Shown here: positions 13,119 to 45,491 of the stretch, piece by piece
How positions within the stretch are numbered: the first letter of the stretch is position 1
How the letters are laid out: each line of letters opens with the position of its first letter
Source: Kondoa malvinella
Taxonomy: Eukaryota > Basidiomycota > Agaricostilbomycetes > Agaricostilbales > Kondoaceae
Assembly (NCBI GenBank): GCA_039545315.1
Contig: BCIM01000006.1
Coordinates: 496,001-560,000 of the forward strand
Direction: 5' to 3'
DNA: 64,000 bases
Translations under genes and position numbers: made by a program
Notes under the pieces: model-generated
What the model saw: the letters and a program-made list of their open reading frames with translations, nothing else
The model's database searches: none
What the model was told of the DNA's origin: nothing

Positions 13119-14684
<1,566 letters not shown>

Positions 14685-24084: not shown

Positions 24085-24886
24085 ATCGCACAAATGCAGG
24101 TGAAACTCTAGATTTGACCGCGTTCACCTATTCGCTTTCTTCTCTTTGTCTCTTCTCTGTAATTCACTCTTGTCCACTGCCAAAGATACTCTTTCCAAGC
24201 TTATGCCTATCCTACATCTATCTGCAGAGCAAGCATTGGGCTACAAGGCTGCAATGCACTCAAAAGAGCGGGAAATGTTCGGTAATGGTTCCGTCTGTCT
24301 GGTTGCTTCCTGGAACACGTCTGACTGTCGATGGAGGAGCGGAGGACCGAGCGGCGCCTGCAGTAATTGGGCACCAAGCGATAGTGGCAGAATCGCCCGA
24401 TGCATTTCTTGCATTCGCGATAGTCGGTAATTTCCGACATGCTGCGTGGTACCCATCCTCTTGTCTGTAAGACATGGCATGAGTTTCAGTGAGTGCTGAA
24501 AGGATGAACAATCCAAAGATTTGTTTTGGCAGACAAATTGAACAGATACACATCATAGATGGACAGAAGCTATCATAGATCGAGCCGACCAGGCTGTATA
24601 GGGACTTGGCATTGAAGATGCAGGAGATCACGATTGCGCCATGTCAATGTCAGGTTTACCGGTACCGAAGTCTGCTCTGACAGTCCCTACAGCATCCGCA
24701 TGACATAGACAAGCTATATAGCTGCATTAGCATAATGCTACACTAAGCTAAGGTCATCTGTCTGACACCCATAGATGGATGGAAGTTCGAATTATCGAAT
24801 TTTTTCGCTGACCACAAGCTTGAACTTTTTCGGCCAAGTCCAGCTCATCTCTCTTACATCGACTCCCCTCTGAAGACAAGCTCAAG
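24085..24886. other. 802-nt gap, no gene supported
   Basis: Overlapping open frames of 75-123 codons exist on both strands at 24114-24631, but none shows a known motif, a signal peptide or good splice continuity. A 13-nt palindrome (TAGCATAATGCTA) sits at 24728-24740. The distal part should be the RPS18 promoter. Confidence 0.4.
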
Positions 24887-25688
24887 ATGTCGCTCGTTCG
24901 TCACAGTAGCGGCTATTGCATGAGGATACCCTGACACTCGAGATTACAGGTCGCACCAGACCCAAATGCGCCTTTCCAGCACATTCTCCGTCTGTTGAAC
25001 ACCAAGTAAGCCCCTTTGTCTGTCTGTGTCCCATTAGTCGCACGCTGACTTGCTTCGACAGCGGTTTGTCTGGATACCGTAAAGATCGAGCAATAGACTG
25101 ACCCCCGAATGCAGTCGATGGACGAAGGAAGATTATGCAAGTCACATATTCGAGACGCTGGAGAGAGGGCTTGGGCTTACACTAGGGTGACAGGTTCGCC
25201 TTGACTGAAATCAAGGGTGTGGGCCGTCGTTATGCGTGCACAGTCTGCCGCAAAGCAGATGTCGACCTAAACAAGCGGTGGGTCTCGTCTCGGACAAGTC
25301 ATGGTTGTAAAGGCTCATGGCCTTCGTTGTTATCCACAGTGCCGGTCAGCTCAACTCGGATGAACTCGAGCGAATCGTCACCATCATGCAAAACCCAGCT
25401 CAATTCAAGATCCCCAAATGGTTCTTGAACAGGCAGAAGGACATTGTCGACGGCAAGGACTACCAGGTGCTTTCCAACGGTCTCGACTCCAAGATGCGTG
25501 AGGATTTGGAAAGGCTCAAGAAGATCCGCAACCACCGTGGTCTTCGTCATTACTGGGGTCTCAGAGTCAGAGGTCAGCACACAAAGACAACAGGCCGAAG
25601 AGGAAAGACTGTTGGTGTTGCAAAGAAGAGTATGTCGATTCATACATCGCTTTTCGCGTCTTGCATACTGACCCTTTTCACAGAGTGA
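24887..25688 (+). CDS. RPS18: 40S ribosomal protein S18 (uS13)
   Basis: Small-subunit head protein that contacts the P-site tRNA and helps form intersubunit bridges. The protein reads [137 protein letters not shown] and [13 protein letters not shown]. The first coding exon is 9 nt (MSL) followed by a GTTCGT donor. A 2-nt exon (25062-25063) is needed for NVDG, and a GC-AG intron (25137-25193) for KIMFAL. The last coding exon is 5 nt (AG plus TGA). Ribosomal protein genes are often intron-rich, but this one is extreme. Confidence 0.95.
25062..25063 (+). other. Candidate 2-nt exon in RPS18
   Basis: CG lies between CGACAG and GTTTGT. The codons become AAC ACC AA-C G-TC GAT GGA, i.e. [11 protein letters not shown], the conserved uS13 sequence. 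Both flanking introns (25006-25061 and 25064-25114) have their own CTGAC branch point and AG. Joining 25005 directly to 25115 would shift the frame. Confidence 0.7.
25137..25193 (+). other. GC-AG intron in RPS18
   Basis: Donor ATTAT|GCAAGT, acceptor GACAG. It restores [17 protein letters not shown] exactly; the alternative GTCACA donor would insert QGDR into a conserved helix. Confidence 0.75.
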
Positions 25689-25872
25689 TTTCTTCACTCA
25701 TCGACCTTGTATTCTTGGGCGGACCAGGCTGGCAGTACCTTGCATTCGTATTCAAACATTGCAACTTCCGACCGGTTTGAGCAGTCAAGTCATCCTTTCG
25801 CTGTCTACAATCTGCTTTTCGCCAGACTTTTGATACAAGCATCGCTATTTGACAATCAGTGCTATACTCCTT

Positions 25873-43822: not shown

Positions 43823-45262
43823 TCACGAAGCCACCATCCTCTCCCATCTCTCTTTCAGCCTCGTCCACAACCCAACTTTGCACACCATCATCAACACCAA
43901 CAACCCAGGTAGATGCACCACACTAGCCCAAAACGCCCACTTGGCTTCCTTGTTCCTACTCTGCTGCTGCTTCGCCTGCTCTTCCACACTCCCACGTCTG
44001 TTTATCACATCCGCTGTGCTTCGCCAAAATCGATACGAAGTCCATGCTAGCGCGGCGTTCGGTATTGCGCTGAGGACGGCAAACCATTGATTCGTCAGAC
44101 CGAGAGCTGGGAAAGCGGCGCAGATGGGAAAGAAGGAAATAGCGTATCGTAGACCAACACGAGCGTTCAAGAGCGGGTTGGTAACAGACATCATCTTGTA
44201 TCCTGCTCTTGCGTAATCGCGACGTAGTGTATGGGCGAGAGGATTGAAGTGAGGGAATTGCCACGCGAAGAGTAACGCGAATAGAGCCCATGCGCCAGGT
44301 TGGGTTATTGGGTCGATCGAGCCAGTGCATGCTGCCCACCCCATCATTGGCGGTAGTGCGCCGACTACTGCTCCAACCCATGTATTGACTATATGCATTC
44401 GCTTGAGAGGTGTGTAGATGAAAGAGTAGAGAATGATGTTGGCTAAACCGAGTGACGCCGTGAGAGGATTGACGAGCGTCCACAAGATACTGGCACCTGC
44501 TATGCCTGTTGAAGCAGCGAAAGAGAAGGCGTGAAGCGGACTCAGCAGACGTCGGACCAACACACGATTTCTAGTACGAAGCATTTGCGCATCATATGGG
44601 ACTTCTGACATTTGATTGAAGGTGTTTGCCGAGCAAATGCAGAGTAACGTCCCCACTGTAGTCGATAGCAGAGTCGGCAGCGTAAGCGAATAAGCTGAAG
44701 TAGCGACTGAAGGCCCATTGCCCATAGCGAGATCCGACAAATCGACACCTCCGGGAAGGGACACCACGAAAGCTTGCAGCGCATCACAGCCAGAAGAAGG
44801 ATCCACAGGACATATTGCATATCCGGCCATTGTAGTGAGCACGACCAGCGCAGCGAGTTTAGCTTTCGACAGTTGCATGTACATCTTGAGCAGTTCGGCT
44901 GCACTGTAAGTCTTGGCGATAGGTCTCCATCCTTCGGCGAGTAGCTCTTCAGTTGATTTGCTCTCTACAGGCCGATCAGCTTTAATTTGCTGTTGCACAG
45001 GTCTGGCTATACTTGTCGAATTGGACACTTCATCTTGAGGCAAGAACTTTTGTGTTCGATCGCGCAGTCGTGTAGCTAGTGGAGTAGTAAAGAAAGTATT
45101 CCATTGACTGCTCGTGGAGGCCGGCGGCTTGCTAGAAAACGAAGATGCTGCAAAAGTTGCTGTCGTTGCATTGCGAGATATTAGGCTTCTGGGTATAATT
45201 GCTCGAGCGGTAGCAGGACGCAGCAGGGCAGTCTTGCAAAGTGCACATCGCGCAGTGTGCAT
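43823..45262 (-). CDS. COX10: Protoheme IX farnesyltransferase (heme O synthase), intronless
   Basis: Mitochondrial inner-membrane UbiA-type prenyltransferase that makes heme O for cytochrome oxidase. The chosen start (MHTARCALCKTALLRPATAR) begins an Arg-rich presequence; the frame is open 26 codons further (to 45340). Motifs: MQLSKAKLAALVVLTTMAGY, CSANTFNQMSEVPYDAQMLR with TRNR (first Asp-rich prenyl-diphosphate site), YTPLKRMHIVNTWVGAVVGA, PPMMGWAACTGSIDP, AWQFPHFNPLAHTLRRDYAR and GYKMMSVTNP (second site). About seven to eight hydrophobic helices. The whole gene of about 480 codons is one exon, in sharp contrast to its neighbours. Confidence 0.95.
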   Translation of the reverse strand: MHTARCALCKTALLRPATARAIIPRSLISRNATTATFAASSFSSKPPASTSSQWNTFFTTPLATRLRDRTQKFLPQDEVSNSTSIARPVQQQIKADRPVESKSTEELLAEGWRPIAKTYSAAELLKMYMQLSKAKLAALVVLTTMAGYAICPVDPSSGCDALQAFVVSLPGGVDLSDLAMGNGPSVATSAYSLTLPTLLSTTVGTLLCICSANTFNQMSEVPYDAQMLRTRNRVLVRRLLSPLHAFSFAASTGIAGASILWTLVNPLTASLGLANIILYSFIYTPLKRMHIVNTWVGAVVGALPPMMGWAACTGSIDPITQPGAWALFALLFAWQFPHFNPLAHTLRRDYARAGYKMMSVTNPLLNARVGLRYAISFFPICAAFPALGLTNQWFAVLSAIPNAALAWTSYRFWRSTADVINRRGSVEEQAKQQQSRNKEAKWAFWASVVHLPGLLVLMMVCKVGLWTRLKERWERMVAS

Positions 45263-45491
45263 CTGGTGCCTTGAGTGGACGATGGCAAAGAAAGGCAAAA
45301 AATACAGATGAGCTGATTCGACAAAAGCAGTCAAAGACAATGCATAGATTTACTCTGCAGATCAAAGCTATTGTCATTTCAGTTTCCTTTACGATCCTTT
45401 CTGTTCGCGATTTGCTATAGTTTACTGTCAGCGTGCAGCAGCGTTGTTAGCTCTGGCGAGACAAAGCATCTCAACGCAAAGGACTGACAAC

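Follow-up and report, generated by a model that had tools for sequence, protein, structure and literature searches.

A 2-nt exon predicted between two ordinary short introns in the RPS18 gene of the basidiomycete Kondoa malvinella

How small can an exon be and still be joined into an mRNA? The question is raised by the gene for ribosomal protein S18 (RPS18, uS13), encoded on the + strand (CDS 24887-25688, seven exons) of the window, a stretch of 64,000 nt in contig C6 of a genome of 19.1 Mb and 20 contigs. The 109-nt span 25006-25114 within this gene divides into a 56-nt intron, the dinucleotide CG (25062-25063) and a 51-nt intron, and the original prediction was that exactly these two bases must be kept as an exon. 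An exon of 2 nt would then lie in one of the most conserved and highly expressed gene classes, within a genome whose exon lengths run without a break from hundreds of nt to 2. The smallest exon that a spliceosome can handle would become directly testable within one organism. The matter is also practical, as automatically produced gene models can put essential genes of such genomes out of frame. In our assessment, it is very probable that RPS18 mRNA carries CG as a constitutive 2-nt exon between ordinary short U2-type introns, which would be recognized by intron definition and probably removed sequentially.

The gene begins with exon 1 (24887-24895), which encodes MSL in the spliced alignments of four out of five proteins, followed by intron 1 (24896-24949; 54 nt, GTTCGT..ACAG, with a CTGAC branch point), placed by spliced alignment and intron score. 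The fifth alignment, with P0035, differs in this intron only (24900-24949). Exon 2 (24950-25005), delineated by spliced alignment and translation, ends in AA. The bases at the site then run AACACCAA, GTAAGC (from 25006) ... GACAG (to 25061), CG, GTTTGT (from 25064) ... GCAG (to 25114) and TCGATGG. The CG exon (exon 3) completes the AAC codon of N22 and starts the GTC codon of V23. It is flanked by two complete introns, intron 2 (25006-25061; 56 nt, GTAAGC..GACAG) and intron 3 (25064-25114; 51 nt, GTTTGT..GCAG), each with its own donor, branch point and AG. Their CTGAC elements lie at 25045-25049 and 25098-25102, with the branch A in both cases 13 nt from the 3′ end. Thus, coordinates, bases and splicing signals are as originally claimed. 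Exon 4 (25115-25136; 22 nt, spliced alignment) supplies the rest of V23, DGRRKI and AT. Intron 4 (25137-25193; 57 nt) is of the GC-AG type (GCAAGT..ACAG) and its junction is backed by the spliced protein P0034. Exon 5 (25194-25277; 84 nt) relies on spliced alignments, intron 5 (25278-25339; 62 nt) on spliced alignment and intron score, exon 6 (25340-25629; 290 nt) on intron score and a second aligner, and intron 6 (25630-25683; 54 nt, CTGAC branch point) on intron score. Exon 7 (25684-25688) is AG TGA, i.e. the end of the last K codon and the stop. A second cytosolic RPS18 copy was not found in the genome; the one other match, in contig C16, is 25% identical and, from its divergence, is probably the mitochondrial homologue.

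The assignment of CG as an exon relies on spliced alignment, translation and shuffled sequences. Five uS13 proteins from other fungi (P0002, P0035, P0012, P0025 and P0015) were aligned to positions 24800-25750 with a motif-blind aligner, whose whole knowledge of splicing is that donors are GT or GC, acceptors are AG and introns measure at least 25 nt. All five proteins picked the junctions 25006-25061, CG and 25064-25114. Among the matches listed of two protein searches, 159 are uS13 homologues and 154 of them cover the site; N22 followed by V or I23 is found in 152 of these 154 listed matches, and an insertion between residues 22 and 23 in none. The two exceptions, P0066 and P0122, have unrelated residues there. 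Leaving out CG breaks both the frame and this conserved motif: a single 109-nt intron over the whole span leads to MSLV..LLNTN-RWTKEDYVRLD-stop. Two further claims of the original prediction, that CG is needed to read NTNVDGRRK and that one intron shifts the frame, therefore hold. At the junction, the spliced form fitting the CG exon is AACACCAACGTCGATGG; AACACCAATCGATGG would count against it if it were the main form.

Both introns are typical of this genome. The first 34 alignments of conserved housekeeping genes from the same genome, RPS18 excluded, yielded 204 introns with the motif-blind aligner, of which 197 measure 46-73 nt (mean 54.7 nt, sd 5.0). These 197 constitute the training set of an intron model; seven others (30, 93, 112, 130, 165, 253 and 308 nt) were left out. 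Training introns have GT (193) or GC (4) donors, a G at position +5 in 94% of cases, as also in RPS18 introns 2 and 3, and a [CT]T[AG]A[CT] branch element 6-40 nt (mostly 11-27) from the 3′ end in 132 of the 197. On the intron score, whose branch-point matrix was set by hand after viewing the training set, intron 2 falls at the 93rd and intron 3 at the 32nd percentile of the 197. The single 109-nt intron falls below all of them, a very low score that is due to the length term. Motif-blind alignment and an intron model derived from other genes thus both support the reading of CG as a putative 2-nt exon.

Such a parse seldom arises by chance. The interior of the 109-nt span was dinucleotide-shuffled in 4000 trials, with 5 bases at its start and 24 at its end kept fixed. 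A 2-nt split whose two introns scored no worse than the real ones appeared in 2 shuffles, any frame-compatible split up to 20 nt in 12 and any split up to 20 nt in 28. The runner-up parse, found with donor 25064 forbidden and for P0002 and P0012 only, likewise contains a 2-nt exon, TC (25038-25039), between introns of 32 and 75 nt, the longer one a GC intron, and reads NTNLDG. The CG parse is ahead by just 8 score units in the two proteins (644 versus 636 and 630 versus 622). It is the intron model, not this motif-blind margin, that tells the two apart, because the 32-nt intron scores -6.3, below all 197 training introns. An origin of introns 2 and 3 by tandem duplication was rejected: the two have no more than 8 bases in common in their best match (score 16), a score reached by 17 of 197 and 27 of 197 other introns. 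Nor were intron families seen, as two training introns from genes of different names never reached a score of 34.

Other ways of preserving the frame have to be weighed against the CG exon. Extending the exon to 17 nt (25062-25078), with a 36-nt intron behind it (donor GTAAAG at 25079, acceptor at 25114), keeps the frame without a stop and leaves acceptor and branch point unchanged, but inserts five residues (NTN-GLSGYL-DGRRK). This is very improbable, since the 36-nt intron is shorter than the 46-nt minimum of the 197 training introns, has A at +5 (4% of the 197) and, with a total score of -1.9, falls below all of them, while V23 becomes L and no insertion there is seen in any of the 154 homologues that span the site among the matches listed. 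Hardly more credible is a single intron with non-canonical ends (AA-AG, GT-GC or TA-CA) that keeps two more bases and yields NTKFDG or NTKVDG. It too is in frame, and the genome tolerates some deviation, as GC donors occur in 4 of 197 introns. However, it would be 107 nt long with unusual termini, when the motif-blind aligner found just 6 introns longer than 73 nt among 204; at residue 22, the 154 homologues among the matches listed have N in 152 cases and K in none; and the two complete internal splice-site sets would go unexplained. The alternative donor retaining 25006-25007, put forward with the original prediction, belongs here: it needs an AA-AG intron, gives NTKFDG and fails on the same absence of K22. 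An assembly error or local indel, such that one intron or other bases in fact preserve the frame, seems scarcely likely either. Assembly errors may occur, because RPL8 in the same assembly shows CG in place of an AG acceptor, possibly a base error. Yet one intron keeping all residues requires two extra bases, not one, and both internal introns would be chance matches, at the level of 2 in 4000 shuffles.

A different possibility is that the CG exon exists but is spliced with low efficiency or in alternative ways, so that skipping or intron retention yields much non-productive mRNA, perhaps regulating RPS18 output. This is quite unlikely and is compatible with the preferred explanation except for the word 'constitutive'. 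It brings in P0034 (126 aa, source jgi, longest contig 958 nt), which is identical to the RPS18 prediction from M30 to the end. Because P0034 runs across the GC-AG junction and the next two junctions, its source would be RNA already spliced, from this species or a very near relative; its start lies downstream of the CG exon. Correct splicing would permit a 155-aa call versus the 126 aa of P0034. With CG skipped or intron 3 kept, both forms have early stops in the main frame, the stop lies upstream of M30 and M30 becomes the first in-frame ATG, so that the start of P0034 is the one expected from such transcripts. Nevertheless, this is one protein from one contig, and an internal-start call explains it equally: AAGGAAG, which resembles a bacterial ribosome-binding site, stands immediately 5′ of the M30 ATG, and may be why the gene caller chose this start. 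The bearing of P0034 on the CG exon is therefore neutral, or silent, to mildly adverse.

The putative CG exon can be set against exon lengths elsewhere in the genome. In 68 alignments (RPS18 included, some genes multi-copy), 381 introns fall within 14,266 residues, a density of some 8.9 per kb CDS. The aligner used for this exon tail, the second one, favours 40-76-nt introns. Queries with calmodulin, cyclophilin and ubiquitin-conjugating enzyme gave no gene model, and 7 of the 68 regions fetched (L058-L062, L064 and L081) lie outside the alignments. One RPL8 artefact exon was removed from the exon counts, while the intron counts still include the erroneous introns of this gene. The resulting 313 internal exons comprise 1 of ≤2 nt, 2 of ≤3 nt, 3 of ≤5 nt, 14 of ≤10 nt and 42 of ≤20 nt. 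The smallest are those of RPS18 (2 nt), an H3 variant (3 nt), Ran (5 nt), actin (6 nt) and α-tubulin (7 nt), followed by exons of 8 nt and up. If as many introns were scattered at random over the first 54 of the 68 alignments, the expected exon counts would be 5.7 (≤2 nt), 13.9 (≤5 nt), 27.1 (≤10 nt) and 111.9 (≤50 nt), versus 1, 3, 13 and 86 observed; the 14 alignments added later contain no exon under 8 nt. Very small exons are therefore disfavoured, or partly missed by the aligner, yet not forbidden. The CG parse is ordinary for this genome because both introns are typical and exons reach down to a few nt; the RPS18 exon is the extreme of a continuous length range, not an isolated oddity.

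How might such an exon be spliced? Short introns with tight donor-branch-acceptor spacing are recognized as units across the intron, and the intron length distribution of the genome suggests that RPS18 follows this mode. Each intron would be recognized as a unit, its 5′ splice site, branch point and AG all lying in a stretch of some 50 nt; recognition of the CG exon by itself would then be unnecessary. The original objection that an exon this small cannot be defined by ordinary exon-bridging factors has little force in a genome whose introns of 46-73 nt are most readily understood as units defined across the intron. From the sequence context we infer passage of the mRNA through CG and successive removal of introns 2 and 3, the latter probable because the AG of the intron 2 acceptor is within the U1 footprint of the intron 3 donor. 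Simultaneous engagement of both sites, which share the space of one U1 snRNP, would be unlikely. A first splice would join CG to a normal exon, and the second intron would then have a normal-sized flanking exon; intron 2, with its higher score, may go first. It is tempting to go further and propose that pure intron definition on 46-73-nt introns sets no firm lower limit to exon size, that many exons of 1-5 nt exist and that CG acts as a splicing checkpoint, skipping or retention giving non-productive mRNA that tunes ribosomal protein output. This broader proposal is, however, rather unlikely.

Ultra-short exons have been described in other organisms, and the original statement that exons of 1-2 nt are almost unknown was somewhat overstated. 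A 1-nt exon in Arabidopsis APC11 is reported as experimentally verified, with intron definition and one-after-another removal proposed (PMC4674806); 1-nt exons are also described in plant APC11 and VPS55 (PMC8831610) and in Fusarium CYP621A P450 genes, where the paper cites SRA reads in support (PMC12940212). As described, the APC11 exon is, like that predicted for RPS18, a constitutive ultra-short exon needed for the frame of a conserved gene (PMC4674806, PMC8831610). It is of 1 nt, from a plant and verified, whereas the RPS18 exon is of 2 nt, in a fungal ribosomal protein gene and predicted from sequence. The CYP621A case, as presented, is likewise fungal, was revealed by exon phases that do not join and has ordinary splice sites on either side; it differs in concerning 1 nt of an ascomycete P450 gene, whereas RPS18 belongs to a basidiomycete with micro-exons across housekeeping genes (PMC12940212). 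Spliceosomal twin introns (stwintrons) of Ascomycota, as described, also consist of two adjacent U2 introns removed in consecutive reactions. In a stwintron, however, one of the introns sits inside a splicing element of its partner, while in RPS18 both introns are complete and CG is retained. A stwintron identity of RPS18 introns 2 and 3 was therefore rejected, as donor, branch point and AG are proper to each and CG must stay. The RPS18 exon thus joins an already known class of ultra-short exons. What sets it apart is where it occurs: the gene encodes a ribosomal protein, and the genome has roughly nine introns per kb of coding sequence together with an unbroken tail of micro-exons. No earlier report of a 2-nt exon was found in the literature searched, where papers on HLA-F and on Okazaki fragments were set aside as irrelevant, and one scan of viral_contigs found no relative.

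Several other genes of this genome deserve mention. In a divergent H3 gene (124 of 136 residues identical to the query; L063, G000:C14:79300-80600), the 3-nt exon AAA (109-111) is exactly the K4 codon and sits between introns of 59 and 253 nt; its skipping would give an in-frame H3 without K4. In the Ran GTPase gene (L078 reverse strand, G000:C6:463400-465500), the 5-nt exon ACCTG (1573-1577) lies within S-P-A codons. Within the window, the gene for the PP2A catalytic subunit (about 13272-14206) has nine introns (51-60 nt) and a 9-nt exon. Introns >76 nt are only 3 of 381 in the model-guided alignments, which disfavour long introns (lengths of 93, 112, 130 and 165 nt came up as well with the motif-blind aligner): 253 nt in the H3 variant, 308 nt in PP1 and 400 nt in RPL18 (L063, L076 and L105). 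These three may be truly long or conceal more micro-exons.

A second 2-nt exon, suggested by the aligner in RPL8 (L073), was rejected, as the 'intron' beside it scores -11.9 and a stop occurs in the reading. In this gene (uL2; G000:C10:503300-505200), a 53-nt intron at 1356-1408 ends in CG, not AG, and the exon before NPVDHPHGGG, read by eye, begins at 1409. The simplest reading of the CG acceptor is an assembly base error, the alternative being a non-canonical 3′ splice site.

Finally, COX10 (window 43823-45349) is intronless over 432 aligned positions, although the genome is intron-dense. Its best species-named match is a Mixia osmundae protein (58% identical over 75%), which makes a position in the Pucciniomycotina most likely; a Mixia protein is absent among the 120 matches listed for either RPS18 protein search. 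The COX10 protein is 96% identical to P0160, whose source 'lgn' is taken as Logan assemblies.
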